Program-made: the position numbers and the translations under genes
In this document: positions 11,971 to 53,729 of the stretch, in pieces
How positions within the stretch are numbered: the stretch's first letter is position 1
Layout: each line of letters starts with the position of its first letter
Notes under the pieces: model-generated
The model's input: only the letters and a program-made list of their open reading frames with translations
Databases searched by the model: none
Told to the model about the DNA's origin: nothing
Virus record (IMG/VR): IMGVR_UViG_3300025011_000030
Coordinates: 1-64,000 of that record
Direction: 5' to 3' (one strand)
Source: a virus
Length of the DNA stretch: 64,000 nucleotides

Positions 11971-12828
11971 ATGTTTAACTTTTACTTTACCGGAGGTGTA
12001 CCGGCCGAGGCCGACGACCTTGTAGGCGATAACGTTCTTTTAAGTTATGCTACAGACAGGAGAGGAATCATAAAGCGATACGACCGAGGCCGGTCAACTT
12101 TTGTTGACTCAGGAGCTTTTACTGCCTACACGAAAGGTATAAATGTTGATATTGACGAATACGTCAATTTCGTTAATGCATATGACGAATATATTTCGTA
12201 TTTTGCTCAACTTGATGTGATACCCGGCAGTTACGGGCTATCTGCCGAACAAACGACTGATATCACTTTGAAGAATTATTTGTATATGTTAAGTCGTACT
12301 AAAAGCCCTTGTAAGTTAATCCCAGTATTTCATCGTGGTTCTAATTTAAACTATTTAAAGCAGTTGATTCATACAGGTACAGAGTATATAGGTCTTGGGG
12401 CAATGGCTAAAGTTCCTGAAAAAGAACGTGCGATTTGGCTGACAGAAGTTTTTAAACTAATACCGTCACAAGTTAAAGTTCATGCATTTGGTCTTACTAG
12501 CTTTGACCTACTGGAGCGGTTTCCGTTTTACAGCGCAGACTCGACGTCGTGGTTGATTTATGCGGTGAATGGTCGTTTAATAACTGATTTTGGAAATTAT
12601 ATTGTTATTTCACAAGGTAGAAAAAAGCTTCGGTGCCATGTTGAGCACAAAGGTGAGCTCATAAAAGATACTTTGTATGATTTTATACGAGAGCGCGGCT
12701 TTGAACCTGAACAGCTAATAAACGACCCAAAATCTCGGTTGTTATGGAATATAAAATACATGCTTGAGTGGGTCAACAAATATCAGTATAAACCTGCTAA
12801 ACAAGTCAGTCAAACTAAGTTGTTTTGA
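11971..12828 (+). CDS. DpdA-like DNA guanine transglycosylase, copy 2
   Basis: 285 aa, paralogue of the gene before it and 16 bases downstream. The same blocks occur: F-V-D-S-G-A-F-T-A-Y-T-K-G, Y-F-A-Q-L-D-V-I-P-G, V-H-A-F-G-L-T-S and F-Y-S-A-D-S-T-S-W-L. The C terminus is K-Q-V-S-Q-T-K-L-F, again a clamp motif. Having two intact copies that differ outside the active-site blocks suggests different DNA contexts or a heteromer; the sequence does not say which. Confidence 0.75.
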   Translation: MFNFYFTGGVPAEADDLVGDNVLLSYATDRRGIIKRYDRGRSTFVDSGAFTAYTKGINVDIDEYVNFVNAYDEYISYFAQLDVIPGSYGLSAEQTTDITLKNYLYMLSRTKSPCKLIPVFHRGSNLNYLKQLIHTGTEYIGLGAMAKVPEKERAIWLTEVFKLIPSQVKVHAFGLTSFDLLERFPFYSADSTSWLIYAVNGRLITDFGNYIVISQGRKKLRCHVEHKGELIKDTLYDFIRERGFEPEQLINDPKSRLLWNIKYMLEWVNKYQYKPAKQVSQTKLF

Positions 12829-12840
12829 GGAGGTGCTCTT

Positions 12841-13722
12841 ATAGGTTTCAACTTATATTTAGCTTCAAGTATGCCAAAATATATAGACGAGTATATTCAA
12901 CAGCACGGAGATAACGTGTTGTTAAGTTATGCAATAAATAAAGCCGACATACGAAAAAGGTTCAATCAAGGTCGGCCTACATTTGTTGACTGTGGTGCTT
13001 ACTTCGCCTATACAAAAGGTATTTACCTTGACATTGACGAGTACATAGATTTCGTTAATGCTTACAATGAATATGTAAGTATGTTCGCTCAACTTGACGT
13101 AATACCCGAAAAAACGGGTCAAGACGTTACTGCAGCAGAAACCACATGGTTAAATTTCCTGTATATGTATTCGCGGGTTAAAAGTCCACACAAATTATTA
13201 CCCGTATTTCATGCCGGTTCTTCTTTAACAGTTTTAGTTAAAATTCTTAAGTTTAAGCCTAAAATTGATTACATGGCCCTTGGAGCTTTAGTGGGTATGG
13301 GAACTAACGACCGTAAAAACTATATTGAAAAGGTGTTTAAGATAATTCAAAATAGCTCTAATCCTACTATCAAAGTACATGCATTTGGAATGACTGATCT
13401 TAGGATTTTAGAAATGTTTCCATTTGAAAGTGCAGATTCGGCTTCTTGGAAAATTAACGCGGGTAACGGTGAAATGTTGACTGACTTTGGCTATACAGCA
13501 GTTAGTTCCGGTAAAATAGGTCAACCTAATCACATTTTTAAACGGTCTAAGGTTGACCAAGAAAAGTTTATACGTTACGTCGAAGCACAGAGTGATGAAC
13601 CGTTTGACATACTACGTGAAAGCTATAAACTTCGACTTCTGTAGAATGTTAAATATTTCATAAATTGGGCTAAAAACTACAAACGAGTCAGTAAAAACGT
13701 GACGCAGACCGAGCTGTTTTGA
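12841..13722 (+). pseudogene. DpdA-like copy 3, interrupted by an amber codon, ATA start
   Basis: The frame runs from an ATA at 12841 (GAGGAGG just upstream; I-G-F-N-L-Y-L aligns with M-F-N-F-Y-F of copy 2) through F-V-D-C-G-A-Y-F-A-Y, F-A-Q-L-D-V-I-P and F-E-S-A-D-S-A-S-W-K. At 13642-13644 a TAG stands where copy 2 has TGG (L-L-W-N-I-K-Y against L-L-stop-N-V-K-Y). The frame then continues in register for 26 residues to N-V-T-Q-T-E-L-F and TGA at 13720. D-S-G in the first block is D-C-G. Translation from the ATG at 12871 would lack the first strand. Probably decaying; the truncated product would lose the clamp motif. Confidence 0.8.
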
Positions 13723-17202: not shown

Positions 17203-18334
17203 GCAAGAAATTATAACGTTGGGCCCTAAGCATTTGTATGTAGAGCGTATACCTTTCAGCAGCCCGCGGGCTAACTATATGACTTATGGAGGTATTCCTG
17301 TAGGTAAAGCTACCGAAATATTAGGGCCGGAGAATGGAGGTAAAACAACAACTGCCTTAGACATTGTAGCTAATGCCCAGCGAGTAGCTAGTCGAAATTG
17401 GAATACCTCAATGCAGTTAGCTATGCAGGCTCACCAACAGTTGAAGGAAAAGAACAATAAAGTAGATCAAAAGGAGATACTAAAGCTTGAGGAACAAATT
17501 GATTTACTTAATACTAATGGAGCACGTGAAGTAGCTTATTTCGATAGTGAAAATACTTTGGACGAAGATTGGGCAGAAATTAACGGCGTCGACCTCGACC
17601 TCCTTTATATTGCACGACCGCAAGACCATACAGCCGAACAGGTACTTCAAATGATGCTTGACTTGATTGACAGTGATCATTTATTGTGTTTAGTGCTTGA
17701 CAGTATCCCAATGTTAGTACCGCAACAAATTTATGAAGCCGATTTGGAGAAGAAATCTTACGCAGGTGCATCCGGGCCTCTCAGTGAGTTCAGCAAAAAA
17801 GTTTCAGGTAAGATAAGCCAAAATCATACTGCATTAGTATTGATCAACCAGGTAAGGGAAGACCTGGTCAATACTTATAATATGTATAAAACACCTGGAG
17901 GTAGAGCACTTAAACATTTGTATTCACTTCGGTTATTTTGCCGTAAAGGTTCACTTATAGACATAGACAACAGTGAATTGAAGCAAAGTGCAGCCGAGCC
18001 TGCGGGTAATTTAGTAGATATAACTCTTGTTAAGACTAAAATATTTAAACCCAATCGCCGTTTAGGTTTCTATACGTTAAATTATAATTCAGGGATAGAC
18101 GTTTTGGCCGATACTGTTGACATGGCTATCAAATACGATTTACTTAGACAGGCGGGTGCTTGGTTTTATATCATAGAGCACGAAACTGGTGACGTACTGA
18201 GTATTGAAGGTGAACCGTTGAAGTTTCAGGGAAAGGCTAAATTATTGGAATTTTTACGTGATGATACTATTGTATTTAATGAAATTTACCAGAAGGTTCA
18301 TGCATTGGTTACAAGCAGCGAAAATAATACATAA
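17156..18334 (+). CDS. recA: RecA-type recombinase
   Basis: 392 aa; ATG with CAGGAGG 8 bases upstream. The Walker A is G-P-E-N-G-G-K-T-T (residues 56-64), followed after a long insertion by A-Y-F-D-S-E-N-T-L-D and Walker B C-L-V-L-D-S-I-P. L-I-N-Q-V-R is the RecA motif after strand 5; P-G-G-R-A-L-K follows. The insertion at about 75-120 is rich in Gln, Lys and Glu and predicted helical, unlike host RecA. It closes the recombination operon before a terminator. Confidence 0.88.
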   Translation: MNPVQKVVHEINKKYKQEIITLGPKHLYVERIPFSSPRANYMTYGGIPVGKATEILGPENGGKTTTALDIVANAQRVASRNWNTSMQLAMQAHQQLKEKNNKVDQKEILKLEEQIDLLNTNGAREVAYFDSENTLDEDWAEINGVDLDLLYIARPQDHTAEQVLQMMLDLIDSDHLLCLVLDSIPMLVPQQIYEADLEKKSYAGASGPLSEFSKKVSGKISQNHTALVLINQVREDLVNTYNMYKTPGGRALKHLYSLRLFCRKGSLIDIDNSELKQSAAEPAGNLVDITLVKTKIFKPNRRLGFYTLNYNSGIDVLADTVDMAIKYDLLRQAGAWFYIIEHETGDVLSIEGEPLKFQGKAKLLEFLRDDTIVFNEIYQKVHALVTSSENNT

Positions 18335-18370
18335 AATAAGCCCGGGTAAATGTTAACCCGGGCTTATTTT
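18335..18370 (+). terminator. Rho-independent terminator after recA
   Basis: AATAAGCCCGGGT pairs with ACCCGGGCTTATT, followed by TTAT; a long perfect stem. Confidence 0.85.
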
Positions 18371-18408
18371 ATACCTACATAACAGTAAAATTTCAAGTGA
18401 TTTTACGT

Positions 18409-18437: not shown

Positions 18438-18494
18438 ATGTTATTATATTTGTGGGTAGGAAAGTTACCCGTAAAACGGAGGGAGGCCAAATAA

Positions 18495-20180
18495 ATGCCA
18501 AGTATTAAGGTAAACATTTTCAACGAATTAACTAAAATTAGAAACGGTGTAGTATACTCAAGCGTTACTGCAATAGTAGACGAAATTATTCAAAACAGCC
18601 AGCGAGCCAAAGCCACCGAAATTCACATTGTGGCTGACGAGGATACGATAATTATAGCCGATAACGGTATAGGCTGTAAGAACTTAGCCCAAGTATTTGA
18701 AAAGTCGAGTTCAGGTTGGGGATTAGACGAAGCATTTGGCGAAGGTTTTTTCAGTACATTTGCAATCGCCGACAGAATAACCGTAGAGAGCTTGAATAAA
18801 AAAGCGTCGGTTGACGTATTAAATATAATGGAAACAGGTGACTTGAGTTACAGCATAACAGACGGTGACAGGCAGCTTAAAGGTTTCGCAGTAACCCTTC
18901 AAGGTACGTTGATAAAGGAAAACTTAGACAGCTTATACACTCATTTAGCTAAAATCGCGAGTTACTTACCGGCTCAAGTTACCTTAAACGGTGGGACAAT
19001 AGCTAAAAAAGAAATCACCGAGTTACCTTGGGCCGTATTTAGTTACCCGGTCAACAATAAGCTGTATCAAGGTCAACTAGCTCCGGATAAACAGAATAAC
19101 GACATAGAAGTATTTTACGAATACAGAGATGTATGCGAAGTATACGTGGGCAGTGTGACAGGTAAATTGCACTTGAAACAAGGTGCAGTCACTTTAAAAG
19201 CTCCAGATAGGAAAGCGATTGTTCGGGATAACAAATATAGTGACTTTAGGTCACAATTGATGGAAGATACCACTAAAATGTATAAAAAGATTATTAAGGA
19301 TCAACCTGAGCTGATTGACGTATATGCCGAACAGATTGGCCAGTTCCTAACAGTTGCAGATTACATTAATCAACTTGAGCTTGAAGGTATACAGGATGTT
19401 ACTAAGTACATTGGCGAAGTGAGTATGGTTACGGCCCAACTGCAACAAGTATTCGCAGCGGCATTAGCACAGGATACAGCAGTACGTGACCAACAAGACA
19501 GAGAAGATTCAACTGAATTGTTCGAAGTTAGTAACAAAAAGAAAACTCGCCGAAAGAAAATCACTACCCTCAAAAACGACAAGAAAACTATTTGGGTGGG
19601 TGCGAGTGAAGTTGACGGGTATAAGGAAGCCATTGCAGAACTAGAATACTATGGGTTCAAGGTAGTTATTGCGAAACACATATTATACGAAGAAGCTTTC
19701 AAGTCGATGGGATTGATGCATATTGGCGATGTTAAGCAGAACATTATAAAACAGCACAGTATTAAAAATGTGACAGTAAAGACCAGTAAAGAAAAGCGGG
19801 CCCTGTGGCTGTTTGAAAAAATTGAAACTAAATATAACATCCCGGGAACATTTTTAATCGCCGATCTAGGGTTGAACATAGTGACAAAGATTGGCGATAA
19901 GGTGATAAGTAAGGAATCCAAAGTAGTGGCTGGAGTTACACAAGGTGAACATATTTACATGAACCGTAAAAGCCTTCAGTTAGCTAAAATGGATAACAGC
20001 TCTGCATACTACAATTGGGATAGAGTAAACATTGAGGATCTTAGGTTCTTACTTAGGAACTTAGATACGTTGGCACATGAATTGGCCCATAGGATTGAGA
20101 GTACTGAGGACAATACGCTGGGACATTTTCAGGCCCAAACAAGAATTGCCAGTGAGTTAGCTGAATGTTTCGTAAAGTAA
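18495..20180 (+). CDS. GHKL ATPase with C-terminal HELAH zincin-like motif
   Basis: 561 aa. The N-terminal third is a GHKL (Hsp90/MutL/histidine kinase) ATP site: D-E-I-I-Q-N-S-Q-R-A-K-A (N box), I-I-I-A-D-N-G-I-G (G1), G-E-G-F-F-S-T-F (G2). The middle is Lys-rich (K-K-K-T-R-R-K-K near 350). The C terminus has T-L-A-H-E-L-A-H-R-I-E, an HExxH metal-binding motif, with further residues G-H-F-Q-A-Q. The combination suggests an ATP-gated metalloprotease; no family is known to me by name. Alone between a terminator and its own promoter. A second GHKL gene at 35591 is frameshifted. Confidence 0.7.
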   Translation: MPSIKVNIFNELTKIRNGVVYSSVTAIVDEIIQNSQRAKATEIHIVADEDTIIIADNGIGCKNLAQVFEKSSSGWGLDEAFGEGFFSTFAIADRITVESLNKKASVDVLNIMETGDLSYSITDGDRQLKGFAVTLQGTLIKENLDSLYTHLAKIASYLPAQVTLNGGTIAKKEITELPWAVFSYPVNNKLYQGQLAPDKQNNDIEVFYEYRDVCEVYVGSVTGKLHLKQGAVTLKAPDRKAIVRDNKYSDFRSQLMEDTTKMYKKIIKDQPELIDVYAEQIGQFLTVADYINQLELEGIQDVTKYIGEVSMVTAQLQQVFAAALAQDTAVRDQQDREDSTELFEVSNKKKTRRKKITTLKNDKKTIWVGASEVDGYKEAIAELEYYGFKVVIAKHILYEEAFKSMGLMHIGDVKQNIIKQHSIKNVTVKTSKEKRALWLFEKIETKYNIPGTFLIADLGLNIVTKIGDKVISKESKVVAGVTQGEHIYMNRKSLQLAKMDNSSAYYNWDRVNIEDLRFLLRNLDTLAHELAHRIESTEDNTLGHFQAQTRIASELAECFVK

Positions 20181-20184
20181 TAAC

Positions 20185-20210
20185 GGCCCTTCACAGGGCC
20201 TTTTTTACGT
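20185..20210 (+). terminator. Rho-independent terminator
   Basis: GGCCCT/AGGGCC stem with a TTCAC-like loop, then TTTTTT. Confidence 0.85.
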
Positions 20211-20298: not shown

Positions 20299-20769
20299 AT
20301 GTCTGTACCAGAAGCTAAATTTAACGATCCTAGAGAACAGTTTGCGCACCTACTAAGAGCGCTTATCAACGAAAACGGGTATAAACCTGGTAAGCTGGCT
20401 AAGTTACTAAACGTATCCGACGCATCAATTTACGGCTGGAAAGGTGCCGATCCTGACCGTTGGGTAAGTGTTAGTAGTTTAGAGAAATATACTAAACTAC
20501 TAGACGAACTGATTAATGAAATGCCTGTTACTACTTGTATCAACAATCCTGTCGACAGCATGGAATGGAAGGTAAATAAAACTGGGTTGGTAGTTGAATT
20601 TAATACTAACGACAGTAGTATTCAGCAGGCTCTTGTGATGGTTACTCGTCAACGTCAAGAGGTTTTAGACGAAATTGAAGTAACTACCAAACGTTTAGAG
20701 TTACTGCAACTCCAAGATACTAAGCTCGATACAGCTATTCAAGTTCTAAGAAATTTAAACGAAAATTGA
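20299..20769 (+). CDS. HTH regulator with coiled-coil tail
   Basis: 156 aa. A lambda-repressor-like helix-turn-helix is visible at about 33-52 (K-L-A-K-L-L-N-V-S-D-A-S-I-Y-G-W-K). Residues 105-155 are heptad-like (V-T-R-Q-R-Q-E-V-L-D-E-I-E), suggesting dimerisation. There is no peptidase or ligand domain. The upstream palindromes are candidate operators. It may control the switch between expression programmes, but the target is unknown. Confidence 0.7.
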   Translation: MSVPEAKFNDPREQFAHLLRALINENGYKPGKLAKLLNVSDASIYGWKGADPDRWVSVSSLEKYTKLLDELINEMPVTTCINNPVDSMEWKVNKTGLVVEFNTNDSSIQQALVMVTRQRQEVLDEIEVTTKRLELLQLQDTKLDTAIQVLRNLNEN

Positions 20770-22308: not shown

Positions 22309-22536
22309 ATGAGCGAAGTATGTACAGCATGTCACCGTAAACTCAAAGATCCGGAGAGTATTGCTCGCGGTATGGGCCCTGTTTGTTACCAGAAATTCGT
22401 GGGTAGCCCTATTCGGTTAACTATTAAACAGTTAGATCCCGAACAGGTGCCGGCGGTGTTTACGTCAAAGATTTTGCCTGAAGATTTACCGTTGATTCGC
22501 TTATGCCGGTTATTACAAGATAAATTTGGAGGTTGA
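22309..22536 (+). CDS. DUF6011-like zinc protein, short form
   Basis: 75 aa from ATG 22309 (AAAGGAG 9 bases upstream). C-T-A-C-H-R-K-L-K-D-P-E-S and G-M-G-P-V-C-Y-Q-K-F repeat the zinc pattern of the 20883 protein. It precedes dnaX. Confidence 0.65.
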   Translation: MSEVCTACHRKLKDPESIARGMGPVCYQKFVGSPIRLTIKQLDPEQVPAVFTSKILPEDLPLIRLCRLLQDKFGG

Positions 22537-22540
22537 TATT

Positions 22541-23626
22541 TTGATATCATTAGCTTTGAAATACCGTCCAAAAACTTTTGAGGATGTAGTGGGTCAGGAA
22601 AACACTATTAAAATACTAATGAACCAGCTGCAGAACAAAGATACTCGTCAAGGTTATTTATTCACAGGTTCTGCCGGGACTGGAAAAACCACGGTGGCCA
22701 GAATATTTGCCAACGCTATCAACGAGGGTAAAGGTTCACCTATTGAGCTAGATGCTGCAAGTAATAACGGTGTAAACGAAGTAAGAGAACTCCGTGAAAA
22801 CTGTAAGTTTAAGCCCATTGACAGCCCATATAAAGTTTATATTATTGACGAAGTTCACATGTTATCAACAGGTGCATTTAATGCCTTGTTAAAAACATTG
22901 GAAGAGCCTCCTGCTCATGCCGTGTTTATTTTATGCACTACAGACCCGCAGAAAATACCGGCAACTATCATCAGCAGGACTCAACGATTTGGTTTTAAGA
23001 GAATACCCACCGAACAAGTGACTGCACGACTTCGTTATATTTTGGATGTTGAATCTGTTGGTTGTGTAAAGTGCCCAAAAACTGAAGAGTATCATGCTAC
23101 TTGTTTAGAGTGCGAAGAGCCTGATATTTACTATGTTGAACTTGATGCGATTGAGTTTATTGCTAAGTTAGCTAACGGAGGTATGCGAGATGCTATAAGT
23201 CTTATGGATACCTGCCTTTCCTACAAGAACAGGCTGTTGGTCAACGATGTATCTGAAATTTTAGGTACGGCTAACTATACTGATTGCATAGATCTTTTAT
23301 ACAACTTGAACGATCGGGAAGTTAATACAGTTATTGAAATGATCGAAGACCTGTATCAGGAAGGTAAGGATCTTAAGTTATTTGTTAAGACAATGACTGA
23401 CTTCCTGTTAGACTATCAAAAGTATGTGCTATTTAATGGTTTGCAATATTGTACAATACCGTCAATGTATGTACAGGATCTTGAACGGTTACGGGATGTT
23501 TTGTCCAATGATTTTCTGCAAAATACTTTCAAATCGTTTGTTAAGTTAGTACAAACGGTTAAATACGAAAGTGATCCTAAAATGTTGATTGAATGCGAGC
23601 TGTTACTACTTTGTAACGCCGGCTAG
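22541..23626 (+). CDS. dnaX: DNA polymerase III gamma-type clamp loader subunit
   Basis: 361 aa from TTG 22541 (GGAGG 10 bases upstream). AAA+ features: Y-R-P-K-T-F-x-D-V-V-G-Q-E near the start, Walker A G-S-A-G-T-G-K-T-T, Walker B I-D-E-V-H-M, and sensor/SRC S-R-T-Q-R-F. A zinc-like insert C-V-K-C-P-K-T-x6-C-L-E-C falls at about 175-192, later than the usual zinc module of DnaX. The protein lacks the tau extension. It is the ATPase motor that opens the phage clamp encoded at 13825. Confidence 0.92.
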   Translation: MISLALKYRPKTFEDVVGQENTIKILMNQLQNKDTRQGYLFTGSAGTGKTTVARIFANAINEGKGSPIELDAASNNGVNEVRELRENCKFKPIDSPYKVYIIDEVHMLSTGAFNALLKTLEEPPAHAVFILCTTDPQKIPATIISRTQRFGFKRIPTEQVTARLRYILDVESVGCVKCPKTEEYHATCLECEEPDIYYVELDAIEFIAKLANGGMRDAISLMDTCLSYKNRLLVNDVSEILGTANYTDCIDLLYNLNDREVNTVIEMIEDLYQEGKDLKLFVKTMTDFLLDYQKYVLFNGLQYCTIPSMYVQDLERLRDVLSNDFLQNTFKSFVKLVQTVKYESDPKMLIECELLLLCNAG

Positions 23627-23643
23627 ACTGCGAGGTGAAATTG

Positions 23644-24435
23644 TTGATAGGACAGAAAAAATTATTAGATCATTTACGTTCGTTAATTGAGCATACAGGT
23701 ATGCCGGCACTATTAATATTAACAGGGCCTAAAGGTCAGGGTAAATACACATTAGCCAAAGAAGTCGCAGCATTATTTGATGCAGATGTATACGAGCCGG
23801 AAGCACTGAAAGTTGACGACATAAGAGCTTTAATTGAAGATACGTTTACGGTTAACCGACGGAAGATTTACATTTTACGCGATGCTCACGAAATGACGGT
23901 TCAGGCTCAAAACGCTCTACTTAAAACAGCTGAAGAGCCGCCGGTCAACTGTACTATAATAATGACGGTGAGTTTAGTCACTAAAATATTACCTACTATT
24001 TATTCCAGGTCGGTTCAGCTGAGTTTGGACTTGTATTCAAAAGAGGAACTGAAACAGTTTACGGATAACGAGGTATTGTTAACCGTATGCAGTAACCCTG
24101 GACAAATAAAGGAATTCCTAGAAATAGATTTCGTTGCGATGTTCGACAATTGCCTGAAGATACTAAAGAGTGTGGGTAAAGTCACTCATGCAAATACTTT
24201 TAACATTTTAAAGTTTGTTGATGTTGAAAAATTGCATTTGTTTATGCTGGTACTTAAACATATCTATGCAGCTCAGTTACCTTTAGTAGACAAAAGTAAA
24301 GCTCCTTTTTTAGCTAAGAGCATTGAAATACTGCACAGGTATTCAGCTTTATTAACTAATAAGTCTATCAATAAGAATCATGCTTTAGAAATGATGTTTA
24401 TTGATCTTAAGGAGGCTGAATACATTGGAATTTAA
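23644..24435 (+). CDS. holB: Clamp loader delta-prime-like subunit
   Basis: 263 aa from TTG 23644 (TTG 23641 and GTG 23635 also possible; GAGGTGA at 23632). G-P-K-G-Q-G-K-Y-T Walker-A-like, I-L-R-D-A-H-E-M (degenerate Walker B), N-A-L-L-K-T-A-E-E-P-P and Y-S-R-S-V-Q-L. Delta prime is the stator that supplies an arginine finger. Follows dnaX by 17 bases and overlaps holA by 11. Confidence 0.82.
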   Translation: MIGQKKLLDHLRSLIEHTGMPALLILTGPKGQGKYTLAKEVAALFDADVYEPEALKVDDIRALIEDTFTVNRRKIYILRDAHEMTVQAQNALLKTAEEPPVNCTIIMTVSLVTKILPTIYSRSVQLSLDLYSKEELKQFTDNEVLLTVCSNPGQIKEFLEIDFVAMFDNCLKILKSVGKVTHANTFNILKFVDVEKLHLFMLVLKHIYAAQLPLVDKSKAPFLAKSIEILHRYSALLTNKSINKNHALEMMFIDLKEAEYIGI

Positions 24436-25330
24436 GCAGCTGAAAAAAGAACTTGATTCTGGTAAGGTTCGACCTTTTTACATTTTCACAGGTGAAGAAA
24501 AGGAAGTACTTAGGAAGTACATTAAGCGCATAAGTCCCGATGTACAGACAGCTCAGTCCTTAGCCAGTATTGCCGGTAAGTTAAGCAGTCGCGGCCTGTT
24601 TGCCCGTAAACAGACTTTCGTTATACATAACGATAAAGAGGCCGTCAAGGTTGAGTTGAGCACGTTATTGAAGCTCATAGGTAACAATACGGTAATACTT
24701 GTGTACGACAGTATTGACGGACGAATTAAGTTTTTCAAAGAAGCTAAGGACTATATCACCGAGTTTAAAAAGTTCACCGAAGCTCAATTAGCTGCAACGG
24801 TTAAACGTCTTTTAGGAACAGATGTAGAACCTAAAATATCTTTGATGTTGAGTTTGTACTGTGGTAACGATGTCGCCCGGTTAGAACTTGAATGTCATAA
24901 ATTAAGAAGCTTAGGGTTACCTATAACCGAACAGTTAGTTGACGAGTTAGTGATACCGCCGGTCGAAGACGAGATTTTTAAAATGACCGAAAGTATTGCT
25001 AAAAAGGACGCCGTTATGGCTTGGTGCTTATACGATAACCTTCGGCAGTTGAAGGAAAGTCCTATTAAAATGATTAGTATACTCTATACCAAGTTTCGCG
25101 AAATATTTTTGGTACAGAGTATGCTTGACAGGGAAAATACAGAGGTATGCTCTAAGACAGGGTTGGTTTTTTGGCAGGTTAATAAAGCCCGTGAGTTAGC
25201 TAACAGGTTCAGCCTGACTGAGCTACTAAGGCACTTAAAATCCATTCAAAAAGCCGAGGTAGATATAAAGACAGGTCGTATTGAGGATATAGTTGCTTGG
25301 GAAAGCTTGTTGCTTAGCATTCTAAAATAA
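24425..25330 (+). CDS. holA: DNA polymerase III delta-type clamp loader subunit
   Basis: 301 aa from TTG 24425 (AAGGAGG 10 bases upstream). V-R-P-F-Y-I-F-T-G-E-E at the N terminus is the strand that opens HolA proteins; S-L-Y-C-G-N-D-V-A-R-L-E-L-E-C-H-K-L and Y-T-K-F-R-E-I match the later helices. Delta is the wrench that binds and opens the clamp. Together with dnaX and holB it gives a complete three-protein loader. Confidence 0.85.
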   Translation: MEFKQLKKELDSGKVRPFYIFTGEEKEVLRKYIKRISPDVQTAQSLASIAGKLSSRGLFARKQTFVIHNDKEAVKVELSTLLKLIGNNTVILVYDSIDGRIKFFKEAKDYITEFKKFTEAQLAATVKRLLGTDVEPKISLMLSLYCGNDVARLELECHKLRSLGLPITEQLVDELVIPPVEDEIFKMTESIAKKDAVMAWCLYDNLRQLKESPIKMISILYTKFREIFLVQSMLDRENTEVCSKTGLVFWQVNKARELANRFSLTELLRHLKSIQKAEVDIKTGRIEDIVAWESLLLSILK

Positions 25331-35590: not shown

Positions 35591-36687
35591 ATGGGGATTG
35601 ATGTGAGTAAATTTGAATTGTCAATTTCACCTGACTATGTTCCTAATTGGACGGTCGTTGACGGTGTTCGTGAGCTTTTCCAGAATGCATTAGACCAACA
35701 AACACTGTTACCAAATAATGAAATGTTTTTCAGTTACGAAAACGAAATTTTAAGAGTAGGTAACAAAAGTTCTGTATTGGGTATAAACACACTGTTATTA
35801 GGAGCTTCTACCAAGCGCGAGGACGCAATACCATCGGTAAGTTCGGTGAAGGCTACAAGATAGCTACGTTGGTATTACTTAGACACGGTAAGCAAGTCAC
35901 GTTCTATAACTACGGTAATAAGGAAGTTTGGAAACCGCGGTTCGTTAACTCCAAAAGATTTGGGGCTCGGATCTTAACGTTTTTCGTTGATAAAAAATAC
36001 TTTTGGCAGTCTGTACCTGACAATAACTTAATCATTGAGGTCACCGGGATCACTCAAGAAGAATATTGGGACATTGTGAACTCTAACTTACATTTACAGA
36101 CGTTAGATCCGGACCGAGTGATAGAAACCGAGTTTGGCCGTATTATAGAAGACCCAAAGCTCACCGGGAATGTGTATGTCAACGGGCTGTTTGTTTGTGA
36201 CTATGCACCGTACAAGCTGTCATATGACTTTAAGTCGGCACATATCAATATTGACCGTGACCGGAAGTTAGTATCGAACTTTGATTTGGAATGGCTGGCT
36301 TCGCGAATGTGGGCTACTGTGGGCGGCCCTAAGGTTGTAAAAATGGCTCGTGAAGGATATGCCGATGTTAAATATGTGGGTAGTATGCCGGCTGAAGGTA
36401 ACCTTTTTACAAGTGCTTTGTTTGATTTTCGTTGTGAACACGGTGAAAAGGCTGTTCCGGTAACTACTCAGGACGAAATGGAAAAAGTCGCTCAAGGTTA
36501 TAAGCCGGTCATTGTTAGTTCGGCATATATGAAGTTAATAACTTCGTGCTCGTTATACCGTGAGCCTGACGCACCGAAGGTCACCGTTAAAGGGCGTCTT
36601 CATAAATGGTTAGAAGGTGTTGAGACTCGCTTGTATACAGAGGAAATTGCAGAGTTTAGAGCTATTTTAGTAGATATTAGCGAATAA
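35591..36687 (+). pseudogene. GHKL ATPase, frameshifted
   Basis: From ATG 35591 (or GTG 35603) the frame reads V-R-E-L-F-Q-N-A-L-D-Q (N box), L-G-A-S-T-K-R-E-D, then shifts. In the -1 frame N-T-I-G-K-F-G-E-G-Y-K-I-A-T-L-V-L-L-R-H-G-K (the G2 box) continues and runs to 36687. One missing base near 35824-35828 accounts for it. A GHKL protein of about 365 aa would result. Related in fold to the 18495 protein but without the HELAH motif. Confidence 0.75.
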
Positions 36688-49366: not shown

Positions 49367-51577
49367 ATAGCAACTCAACAAATTTCACTACAGGAAATAG
49401 GTGCAGCTACCCGATCACTATTTAACCGCATGTCCGATACAGAGTACCTATCCATACTAAAGTGGCCGTATTGTTTTACTATTTATGATAAGATGCGCCG
49501 CTCAGACGCCCAAATACAGGCGTTACTTTATTGTTTGGAGTTACCTTTGAGATCAACCAGGTGGTATGTAGAGCCGTATGATAAGAACGACCCTAAGTCG
49601 GTGCAGATAGCCGAGTACATTGAGGAAAACTTATTCTCCGGCCCACCTAAAGGGCTAAGTACCCATTGGGACGATTTTATCCGGCTTACTTGTTTAATGT
49701 TTCCATTTGGGCATAGCGTATTTGAGAAGGTTTATGAGGTTGATAATAAAGGATACGCTAAATGGAAGAAATTCGCCGAAAGACCTCAGGAAACAATAAA
49801 AGACTTTACCTATGATGAAAAAGGTGGACCGATATTTATTGAGCAGTATGCAGCCGGGACTTCTTTTGTGCAAATACCTGTAGAGAACAGCTTAATTTTT
49901 ACTCACCGTAAAGAAGGTGGGAGGCTACACGGTATCTCGGCTTTACGAGCACCGTATAAACACTGGTTTATCAAAGACTTCCTACTTAAAATCAGTAACA
50001 TTGGTATTGAGAAGAACTATGTAGGAACGCCTGTCGCCAGGCTACCTGAAAATATAGTTGAAGGCGACAAGGAAGAAGCTGAAAAGATAGTAAGTAACTT
50101 GCGGTCAGGTCAGGATGCTGGGGTAGTATTACCTTATGGATTTACCCTTGATATGTTTGAAGGTAAGCGAACCGCAGTAGAAGTTCTACCTTACATTCAG
50201 TATCAGGATGAAATGATTGCAAAGGCTTTTCTAGCACATTTCCTTCAGTTAGGTACTGGGAGCGTCGGTAGTTTCGCGTTAGGTAAAGACCAAAGTGACT
50301 TCTTTTTAATGTCTCTAAACGCCCAAGGTAACTATATTTGTAACACGATTAATAGCTATGCCATACCGCAGTTAGTTGACTATAACTGGGATGTAGAAGG
50401 TTACCCGAAACTTCGCTGTGATAAAGTAGGTGGTCGCGATACTACAGGTTTAATTACAGGTGTATCCTCGCTTGTAGCTCAACAAATTATACTGCCGGAT
50501 CAGGGACTAGAAGAATTTATGCGCGACGTGCTAGCCTTACCCGAGGTTGACGAGGATACTATACGAGGCGGCCCAGCTGAAGCATTTGCACAAACTGTTG
50601 ATGCCGATGGAAACTCTATAAATCCTCAACCTAACAAGCCTGCAGCGAAAAAGCCTGTTACTCCAGAAGACGGACCACCGAAACTTGATCATAAAGTCGT
50701 ACCTGTTGACGAGGATGAATCAATAAAGGCTACTGAATGTGGTTGCGGAGGTAAGCAACTTTCGGATAATGCCGGTATAAAATGGCGCAGGGATTTGACT
50801 GTATACGAAAAGCGAATAAAGTTCGCCGATATTAAAGACGAGTTTGATACCTCGGAGGCCGAGTTTGTTAAACAGGGAACAAGTATATTAGGCGAACAGT
50901 TTGCTCCGTTTTTAAAACAATTAGCCATACTTATTCAAGAAGGTAAGTGGGAAGAAATAAGTAACTTAACTATTAACAATGGGCCGTTACTCACCTATGT
51001 TGAAAGTTACCTTACAGGGTTATTCAACTTCGGTGTCGGTCAGACAGCTGATGAACTAGATACTGAAGCACCTGATACTGTGCCTGACGTCAACAAACAA
51101 CTAATCGCAGTCAGGTCGGCCACAGTAGCAGAGAAGACTATTGTACTCCTTCGTAGCAAAGTGATTTTTGATACTTTAAATAGTGTTGAGTCTGGAACTA
51201 AGCCGAAGGATGCTGTTAAGCAGGCTGAACAAGGGTTGAAAGATGTAATGAAGAAAGAGTTAGACGGTCATGCAACGGTTCAAACTGCATGGGCCATAAA
51301 CTCAGGTCGTCATTTTGTTGCAGGTGATAGTGGCGTAAAGGTTGCACAGTACTCAGCCATTTTGGACGACCGTACTTGTGCACTATGCCGTGAATTGGAC
51401 GGGCAGATATTTGACGTAACTTCAAAAGAGTTTAAGAAGTTTACTCCTCCGGTGCATAATCGGTGCCGGTGCATATTTGCTTATATAATGCCTGACGAAG
51501 CTAACCCACCCGACCCGAATTTCAAACCACCTTCAGACGACATAGTTCAACGTCATGGAAGCTTTGTACCTAAATAA
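49367..51577 (+). CDS. Portal protein (DUF935) fused to a MuF head-morphogenesis domain
   Basis: 736 aa from an ATA at 49367 (AAGGAGGTGAT 7 bases upstream); the ATG at 49430 is 70 bases from the site. The first 480 residues follow the Mu gp29/DUF935 portal pattern (S-I-L-K-W-P-Y, R-S-D-A-Q-I-Q-A-L-L-Y-C-L-E, W-Y-V-E-P). The C-terminal 220 residues are MuF-like: D-D-R-T-C-A-L-C-R-E-L-D-G and P-P-V-H-N-R-C-R-C. In Mu these are separate proteins (gp29 and gp30); here one chain, with an acidic Pro-rich linker near 410-450. Confidence 0.88.
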   Translation: MATQQISLQEIGAATRSLFNRMSDTEYLSILKWPYCFTIYDKMRRSDAQIQALLYCLELPLRSTRWYVEPYDKNDPKSVQIAEYIEENLFSGPPKGLSTHWDDFIRLTCLMFPFGHSVFEKVYEVDNKGYAKWKKFAERPQETIKDFTYDEKGGPIFIEQYAAGTSFVQIPVENSLIFTHRKEGGRLHGISALRAPYKHWFIKDFLLKISNIGIEKNYVGTPVARLPENIVEGDKEEAEKIVSNLRSGQDAGVVLPYGFTLDMFEGKRTAVEVLPYIQYQDEMIAKAFLAHFLQLGTGSVGSFALGKDQSDFFLMSLNAQGNYICNTINSYAIPQLVDYNWDVEGYPKLRCDKVGGRDTTGLITGVSSLVAQQIILPDQGLEEFMRDVLALPEVDEDTIRGGPAEAFAQTVDADGNSINPQPNKPAAKKPVTPEDGPPKLDHKVVPVDEDESIKATECGCGGKQLSDNAGIKWRRDLTVYEKRIKFADIKDEFDTSEAEFVKQGTSILGEQFAPFLKQLAILIQEGKWEEISNLTINNGPLLTYVESYLTGLFNFGVGQTADELDTEAPDTVPDVNKQLIAVRSATVAEKTIVLLRSKVIFDTLNSVESGTKPKDAVKQAEQGLKDVMKKELDGHATVQTAWAINSGRHFVAGDSGVKVAQYSAILDDRTCALCRELDGQIFDVTSKEFKKFTPPVHNRCRCIFAYIMPDEANPPDPNFKPPSDDIVQRHGSFVPK

Positions 51578-51595: not shown

Positions 51596-52063
51596 ATGAT
51601 TAAGTATGCTGACATTATTAGTGATTCAATCGTCGACGGCCCAGGTATTAGGGTCGTCGCTTTTCTTTAAGGTTGTCCTAGAGTTTGTGAGGGTTGTCAT
51701 AACCTTACCCTCTGTTCAACCGAAGGTGGTATACTAACTACCGAAGAAGAATTCGCCGAACTACTGCTGAGTAAATTAACTCCTCTGCATACTGGAGTAA
51801 CTTTCAGTGGCGGTGATCCGTTAATGCAGGCCGAGGCATTAAATAATGTAATAAAATTTTTACGTTTTCGACAAACAGGACTTGACATATGGGTTTATAC
51901 CGGGTATATTTACGACGAGGTAAAGGATCTACCTGTGATGCAGATGATTGACGTATTGGTTGATGGGCCGTTTATTGCAGAGAAGAAAAGCTTGAACTGT
52001 GCTTTTCGGGGATCGTCTAACCAACGAGTCATTGAAATTAAATCCGGAAAACTGTTATTTTAA
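51596..52063 (+). pseudogene. nrdG: NrdG activase with an internal TAA
   Basis: From ATG 51596 the frame reads S-I-V-D-G-P-G-I-R-V-V-A-F-L, then TAA (51668) where Gln is expected, then G-C-P-R-V-C-E-G-C-H-N with the CxxxCxxC radical-SAM motif and T-F-S-G-G-D-P-L. The rest is intact to 52061. Would activate NrdD (30541). The stop removes the cluster-binding half from the N terminus. It lies between two head genes, far from nrdD. Confidence 0.85.
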
Positions 52064-52079
52064 AGAGGAGGTGAACTTT

Positions 52080-53729
52080 TTGGGTGCAGATGTTGACGGT
52101 AAAAATTCAAACAAACGATATAAAGGGAAGTTACAATATCTTCTTAAATTAGGAGTTGACCCTGTAGTCGCTGCTAGAAAAGCTAGAGGGTATGCCGGAG
52201 GTAAAACATCGCCTAAAGCTGGGAAGACTGAAGGTGAACTTGAAGCCGAAGGTATTACTGCAGGTGAAGATGAGCAGGTTGCCGTGCCGTATAGTACAGC
52301 CAACGACTTACCGAGTACAGTTAAGGATGCACTACCTCCCAAAGCGCAAAAGATATGGATGAAGGCTTATAATTCAGCTACTGAAGACGAAGCTCACGAT
52401 GCCGATAGTTGCACTATTATCGCTTGGGAAGCTATTAACGAGGCGGGTTATACTAAGCAGGCCGAAGGTTGGGTTAAGGCAAGTGACCGTGTAGGTAAAA
52501 TTCACGGAATGATTGCTCTACAGGAGGCTATGCTCACACCGGCCCCTTCAGGGTTGCAGTATTCAGCTTCTTCTATGATTGAAATTATGCGAACAGGTCA
52601 ATGGGATCATCCATTGTACGGTATATTGACAATCACGTCCGAAAGCATGGACGGTTTTATAGCTAACTTCTACAATAACGTTAGAGGAATAGACTTGGCT
52701 GTAGATAAGGAGCACGAACCGGAAGCTGGAGCATTAGGGTGGTTCAAGAAACTTTGGAAAGTACCCAGTGACGACGGTGAAGGTTCTTTCAGCCTTATGG
52801 CAGAGATTCAATGGACTTGGCAAGGTGAGCAACTTATTCGCGATGGAGTTTACCGTTATTTCAGTCCTGAGTTTGACTTTGAATGGACTGACCCGGAAAC
52901 AGCTAATACTTATAGTAACGTGCTATTCGGTGGTGCTTTGACTAACCGCCCGTTTATAAAACGTATGGATCCTATTATATTAAGTGAAGACATGATTAAT
53001 AACCTTGGGTTCGTATTTAATAGGACGAGCGGTAAACAAACAAGTGTTCCCGGTAGTAACCCGCCTGACAAGGGTTCAGGTAAACAAACCAAAGGAGGAG
53101 ATGTAGACGTGAAATTATCTAAAGAGCATTATCAGGCCCTTGGATTAAGCGAAGGTGCTACTGATGAACAAATTCTCGAAGCTATTAAAGCGAAAACTGC
53201 AGTCCCACCGACAGGCTTAAAGTTAAGTACCGAACATTTAACCGTTCTCGGTTTAAGCGAAGGTGCTACTGATGAGCAAGTATTGAATGCCATTAAGGCT
53301 GTGAATACCGAAAAGCAAGAAACAGTTCAACTTTCTGAAACTGTTAGACATCTTAACGAAAAAATGACTGCCCTACAAGGTCAAACCGAACTGTTGAACA
53401 AAGAAAATATCAGGCTGGCTGAAGCTGCGAAAGAAGCTCGTTGGGAAAAAGTATCTCAAGACGCTTTTCGTGACGGTCGTATGACTGTGACATTAGCTGA
53501 AAAGTTTAAGCCGTTATTTGTAGCTAATCCGGATTCTATTGAGCCCATCATTGCTAGTTTACCCAAGGTTATTGCAGGCGAAACAGGTACTTCCGGAGCT
53601 GCCGGCAGTGCTGCAGGTAGTACTACAAAGTTATCCGAAAGTCAGGATAATGTTGCAAAACAACTGGGCCTGAGTGAGGATGCCATGTTGAAAAATGTAC
53701 CGGCTTATATGAAACCTCAAGGGGAGTAA
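52080..53729 (+). CDS. Prohead protease of Mu gpI type with N-terminal ChaB-like domain
   Basis: 549 aa from TTG 52080 (GAGGAGGTGA upstream). Residues about 80-150 have S-T-V-K-D-A-L-P-P-K-A-Q-K-I-W-M-K-A-Y-N and G-W-V-K-A, the ChaB pattern. Then the Mu gpI protease block: G-I-L-T-I-T-S-E-S-M-D-G-F, D-L-A-V-D-K-E-H-E, F-S-P-E-F-D-F, F-G-G-A-L-T-N-R-P. The C-terminal 150 residues are a charged, helical scaffold-like tail with two copies of L-G-L-S-E-G-A-T-D-E-Q. Cuts and shapes the procapsid. Confidence 0.8.
   Translation: MGADVDGKNSNKRYKGKLQYLLKLGVDPVVAARKARGYAGGKTSPKAGKTEGELEAEGITAGEDEQVAVPYSTANDLPSTVKDALPPKAQKIWMKAYNSATEDEAHDADSCTIIAWEAINEAGYTKQAEGWVKASDRVGKIHGMIALQEAMLTPAPSGLQYSASSMIEIMRTGQWDHPLYGILTITSESMDGFIANFYNNVRGIDLAVDKEHEPEAGALGWFKKLWKVPSDDGEGSFSLMAEIQWTWQGEQLIRDGVYRYFSPEFDFEWTDPETANTYSNVLFGGALTNRPFIKRMDPIILSEDMINNLGFVFNRTSGKQTSVPGSNPPDKGSGKQTKGGDVDVKLSKEHYQALGLSEGATDEQILEAIKAKTAVPPTGLKLSTEHLTVLGLSEGATDEQVLNAIKAVNTEKQETVQLSETVRHLNEKMTALQGQTELLNKENIRLAEAAKEARWEKVSQDAFRDGRMTVTLAEKFKPLFVANPDSIEPIIASLPKVIAGETGTSGAAGSAAGSTTKLSESQDNVAKQLGLSEDAMLKNVPAYMKPQGE

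Follow-up and report, generated by a model that had tools for sequence, protein, structure and literature searches.

Known systems and the fusion protein

The RIIA-like proteins of phages, for which a counter-defence role has been proposed, have a GHKL domain at the N terminus and C-terminal parts that vary, and no zincin is named among the C-termini described for them (PMC7824862). Here we describe a protein of 561 amino acids (aa), encoded at 18495-20180 of the first 64,000 nucleotides of the IMG/VR record IMGVR_UViG_3300025011_000030, in which a GHKL ATPase is joined to a C-terminal zincin-like domain. This stretch, referred to as the window, belongs to an 85,650-base virus record of a Dp-1-like phage. 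The architecture of the protein is well supported, and we consider it very probably correct.

T4 RIIA resembles the window protein in being phage encoded and in its layout, a GHKL domain at the N terminus and a variable part at the C terminus, but it is 725 aa long and lacks an HExxH motif. The hhalign comparison of the two gave a probability of 3.1, covering the GHKL core only, with no similarity beyond. Straight orthology to T4 RIIA was rejected, the profile match being marginal and confined to the GHKL region. Membership of the RIIA family is not supported, and a RIIA-like mode of action is possible.

A second described group is phrog_6077, annotated as "histidine kinase-like ATPase" of unknown function, which shares the GHKL domain and the transducer. 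Its members from the Moorella and Exiguobacterium phages and from three further loci of our search (L042, L043, and L049) also bear a C-terminal zincin, which is missing from all five annotated members from Gram-negative hosts that were examined. The window protein, however, falls into a separate clade and has no significant PHROGs match, the phrog_6077 profile included. The nearest GHKL/transducer sequences (E values down to 1e-11) belong to a plasmid family annotated as "ATP-binding protein" (Alteromonas, Hydrogenophaga, Caballeronia, Vibrio, and others), whose C-terminal part is different, with an HExxH motif in none of the 15 proteins examined. The C-terminal domain itself resembles the WLM/SprT metallopeptidases (Wss1, Spartan) and the minigluzincins (proabylysin, MJ1213), which have the same order of helix, strands, and HExxH helix and give the best PDB profile matches. 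The spacing of the third ligand differs, being HExxH-x6-D in the window protein and HELTHNLFGPHD in Wss1, where the His lies one position earlier. We know of no GHKL fusion in the WLM/SprT or minigluzincin families.

Conserved motifs and predicted structure

The gene and its conserved elements are as follows.

18495-20180, + strand: GHKL-zincin fusion gene, 561 aa, ATG start; the bounds of the open reading frame (ORF) are exact
18579-18608, + strand: N box DEIIQNSQRA, residues 29-38; E30, Q33, N34, Q36, R37, and A38 invariant in four close members
18660-18677, + strand: G1 box DNGIGC, residues 56-61; D56, G58, G60, and C61 invariant in four close members
18735-18755, + strand: G2 box/lid FGEGFFS, residues 81-87; F81, G82, E83, G84, F85, and S87 invariant
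19194-19214, + strand: transducer motif LKAPDRK, residues 234-240; invariant among close members
19575-20177, + strand: C-terminal region, residues 361-561; a single folded AlphaFold model
19788-20177, + strand: zincin-like domain of helix, strands, active-site helix, and helix (secondary structure from the model, extent from the C-terminal alignment)
20076-20090, + strand: HELAH, residues 528-532; H, E, and H invariant in 14 of 14 aligned C-termini
20109-20117, + strand: D539-N-T541, with Asp539 as candidate third metal ligand; D and T invariant in 14 of 14
20124-20126, + strand: His544, alternative third ligand; His in 10 of 14 C-termini

The GHKL half matches Pfam HATPase_c_3 at residues 22-102 (E = 2.4e-5; 25.2 bits, above the curated cut-off, in a search of the whole record), and the NCBIfam models of a BbrUII-type restriction enzyme, sacsin, HtpG, and MutL give weak matches to the same domain. 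The hallmarks of the GHKL superfamily, an N box with Glu and Asn, DxGxG, and a GxG lid, are all present, and the N, G1, and G2 boxes are kept in the relatives, in agreement with the first-pass annotation of the window, which had proposed a GHKL ATPase here. The transducer motif LKAPDRK is likely the nucleotide-sensing Lys/Arg loop, and its PDR is also found in most plasmid relatives.

The C-terminal region (residues 361-561) was modeled with AlphaFold from a four-sequence alignment, with a mean predicted local distance difference test (pLDDT) score of 82.2 and a predicted template modeling (pTM) score of 0.66. In the model, HExxH lies within a helix and the next helix begins inside the DxTxxH segment, the ten-residue blocks around the motif having mean pLDDT values of 87 to 92. 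A Foldseek search of the model against BFVD matched two viral proteins of 437 and 543 residues with a probability of 1.00, the shorter of which, judging by its length, is probably the Exiguobacterium phage GHKL-zincin protein.

The 14 aligned C-termini have only 12 to 32% identity to the first row of the alignment, and H, E, H, D, and T are their sole invariant residues. Seven loci were found through the motif itself, which is a selection effect, and conservation was also checked on members found otherwise. The window contains the extended motif HELxH-x6-DxTxxH a single time, and 100 shuffles yielded no instance of it; this absence, together with its conservation in relatives at 31 to 37% identity, argues that HELAH did not arise by chance.

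The sequence following HELAH reads D539-N-T-L-G-H544-F-Q546, so that the His and Gln described by the first-pass annotation near a C-terminal HELAH are in place, and the HELAH helix is followed by candidate metal ligands, the invariant Asp539 and the mostly conserved His544. The segment is therefore not predicted as a bare helix lacking any candidate third ligand, the outcome that the annotation had named as its refutation. The His that it noticed is probably not the third ligand, as position 544 is a Phe in the cultured-phage and plasmid members (Moorella, Exiguobacterium, Alkaliphilus, and Aneurinibacillus). Since all members keep the Asp, the alignment suggests Asp539 as the likelier third ligand.

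Searching the C-terminal profile against PDB resulted in zincins, namely Wss1 (E = 0.0018), leucurolysin, proabylysin, M48, and Spartan. The SprT-like, WLM, and M78 families recur among the sub-threshold Pfam matches, where SprT-like reaches at most 16.2 bits against a curated cut-off of 25.6 and WLM at most 15.2 bits against 26. Thermonuclease matches to the same profile were rejected as weak and lying outside the motif. Two sets of members that had been gathered independently of the motif give a co-linear alignment (hhalign E = 1.4e-5, compared with 0.097 for the reversed control).

Relatives and distribution

Three full-length relatives from IMG/VR, L002 (573 aa), L003 (550 aa), and L026 (581 aa), share 31 to 37% identity with the window protein; besides its GHKL boxes and the transducer motif APDRK, they all retain HELAH-x6-DNT-x2-H-x-Q-A. 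When DNA was scanned for HELxH-x6-DxTxxH, GHKL not being required, 12 viral loci emerged, 10 of them GHKL fusions (L017, the same as L002; L015, the same as L003; L050, the same as L026; L046, L051, L042, L043, L044, L048, and L049) and only two, L045 and L047, non-GHKL loci. Cultured-phage members come from Moorella phage MTATph1 (446 aa) and Exiguobacterium phage vB_EalM-132 (437 aa). The Bacillota plasmid members, from Alkaliphilus pB6464 (L061:2851-6165, 1104 aa) and Aneurinibacillus (L062:1411-4287, 958 aa), have several GHKL-transducer repeats in tandem, of which the Alkaliphilus protein apparently has three, and end in a single zincin, an arrangement that fits a built-in GHKL dimer. The domain order and the conserved catalytic motifs recur in unrelated phages and plasmids, with no conserved partner gene.

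No full-length relative was found by whole-protein tblastn in phage GenBank records, nor by two genome-contig scans, whose reach is limited by their seed patterns. Matches to a scan for AFGEGFFS were discarded, the ORFs being otherwise unrelated.

In the tree of the GHKL part, the window protein forms a clade with L026, L002, L003, L046, and L051 (bootstrap 99), which groups with zincin-free plasmid ATP-binding proteins. The phrog_6077 lineage is set apart by a long branch with a support of 100 and mixes zincin-bearing and zincin-free proteins. Either the fusion is old and the zincin was repeatedly lost, or the same zincin was joined to GHKL proteins more than once.

The GHKL-zincin fusion corresponds to no family in Pfam, NCBIfam, PHROG, or PADLOC; for the 561-aa protein, no NCBIfam model scored above its cut-off and no PADLOC defence-system model matched. 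A prior account of the fusion was not found in the open-access literature (subscription papers not covered). The initial impression of an architecture without a named family is therefore borne out by recurrence, conservation, structure prediction, and these negative family searches.

Genomic context

The signals flanking the gene are listed below.

18329-18374, strand left open: intrinsic terminator separating the GHKL gene from the recA/uvsX-like gene, a 19-pair stem with a T-rich tail behind it (nearly symmetric; assigned to the - strand in the scan)
18480-18486, + strand: strong Shine-Dalgarno sequence AGGGAGG, read directly from the sequence
20185-20200, + strand: intrinsic terminator 3' of the GHKL-zincin gene, GGCCCTTCACAGGGCC then TTTTTT

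The terminators on both sides support a single-gene unit, as the first-pass annotation had suggested, whereas the promoter of its own that had been assigned to the gene finds no support, with 9 promoter-like matches compared with 6.2 +/- 2.6 in shuffles, which is no clear excess. An operon with the downstream gene was rejected because a terminator lies between them and this neighbor is not conserved beside other family members.

The gene adjoins a recombination block of sliding clamp, Cas4-like exonuclease, Holliday junction resolvase, and UvsX-like RecA genes that is syntenic with Streptococcus phage Dp-1, with uvsX/recA preceding the gene and the clamp-loader genes following it. Three consecutive ORFs at 22526-25330, downstream of the phage's own sliding clamp, stand where Dp-1 has three clamp-loader genes. 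Apart from replication genes common to the close pair L002 and L003, family members have no conserved neighbor, a pattern that fits a self-contained function.

The plasmid GHKL relatives adjoin antirestriction, DUF932, SSB, and UvrD genes, and in the L026 phage, GmrSD_N (DUF262-type) and DUF932 genes lie just downstream of the GHKL-zincin gene (L026:9180-11665). These neighborhoods are suggestive of biological conflict and DNA entry, and from such context a role in defence, counter-defence, or regulation, as proposed earlier, is plausible. DUF932 also neighbors GHKL genes on Agrobacterium plasmids.

A second GHKL protein, lacking a zincin, is encoded in the window at 35591-36687 (+ strand); its larger piece matches phrog_6077 with E = 4.4e-47. 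An apparent frameshift near 35820-35840 divides it between two overlapping frames of 90 and 272 aa and could reflect either an error in sequencing or a broken gene. Elsewhere in the window, two queuine tRNA-ribosyltransferase-like genes lie in tandem (11971-12828 and 12871-13644), a single ORF at 49430-51577 joins a Mu-type portal protein to a C-terminal MuF-like domain, and at 51999-53729 a Mu-like prophage I protein domain is preceded by a fused ChaB-like domain.

Possible functions

In GHKL enzymes, ATP binding dimerizes the N-terminal domains, and the transducer moves with the nucleotide state. We tentatively read the window protein as a RIIA-like metallopeptidase that is gated by ATP and directed against host or defence proteins, which in our judgment falls somewhat short of an even chance. 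ATP binding would close the N-terminal GHKL domains into a dimer, and the transducer would relay the movement via the linker to the zincin, where zinc would be held by the HELAH helix and a downstream ligand. The peptidase would cut only a captured substrate, so that capture would precede cleavage. Such a protein would probably be early and non-virion, and would remove or inactivate host proteins during phage DNA replication, its targets most likely being defence or DNA-bound factors.

Several observations weigh against this interpretation. A full-length AlphaFold model from three sequences is poor in the GHKL half (pLDDT 51), and its Foldseek result was discarded as meaningless. The C-terminal model has no significant match to a solved structure in the Foldseek search of PDB. 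Masking the five motif residues removes all PDB profile matches and lowers the hhalign match between the two member sets to E = 0.03, with most of the alignment lost; neither the PDB profile, Pfam, nor Foldseek against PDB gave a motif-independent match to a solved or curated zincin. Because of this effect of masking, the zincin identity depends mainly on the motif, and together with the predicted fold we regard the assignment as likely and motif-driven. Furthermore, the nearest plasmid GHKL relatives and several phrog_6077 proteins have no zincin, so whatever function the GHKL module has in common, it is not proteolysis.

These zincin-free relatives, many in number and presumably still functional, would fit a RIIA-type protector acting by ATP-driven binding, in which the zincin-like domain is a metal-stabilized binding module that does not cut. 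We consider this unlikely, since Glu529 and the His pair are invariant in all members, whereas a structural metal site would not need the Glu. Moreover, a search of the possibly incomplete 85.65-kb record, run without a positive control, gave no match to a RIIB homologue.

A replication-coupled clearance protease is likewise an unlikely explanation. Here, the GHKL dimer would clamp DNA, as in MutL and GyrB, and the SprT/Wss1-like domain would cut DNA-bound or crosslinked proteins, aiding the fork. The top PDB profile match, Wss1, is a DNA-protein-crosslink protease, Spartan is also listed, the gene lies in the Dp-1-syntenic block described above, and in L002 and L003 it directly precedes helix-turn-helix (HTH), DnaC-like, and DnaB-like genes. 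However, no DNA-binding segment was identified, Dp-1 has no GHKL gene at the corresponding position, early phage genes of any kind often lie close to replication genes, and the Wss1 match is motif dependent.

A role as a regulatory peptidase that switches gene expression through cleavage of a phage regulator or of the protein itself, in the manner of IrrE/ImmA peptidases, is quite improbable. Several members show weak M78 (IrrE) similarity, and the gene that follows, at 20299, encodes a short protein giving weak HTH-type matches, but this neighbor is the one beyond the terminator that is not conserved beside other members.

That HELAH is a chance helix sequence in what is simply a GHKL ATPase can be dismissed as very improbable: HExxH is short and arises by chance in many proteins, but the shuffles and the five residues conserved across 14 sequences of low identity contradict it, as do the confident zincin-like model and the presence of the fusion in each of two GHKL lineages that are deeply separated.

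GHKL ATPases usually power chaperones, topoisomerases, and mismatch repair, and proteases are usually partnered by AAA+ machines. A broader proposal, which we regard as doubtful though worth stating, is that phages and plasmids share an unrecognized class of metalloproteases gated by ATP, whose GHKL clamp would hand captured host proteins, perhaps defence complexes, to the attached zincin, the tandem GHKL copies of the plasmid proteins being built-in dimers or trimers. If true, the covalent GHKL-peptidase fusion would represent a different route to powering or gating proteolysis and would provide the RIIA-type phage proteins, which are poorly understood, with a testable activity. The system is approachable through the isolated phages vB_EalM-132 and MTATph1, whose proteins share this layout.
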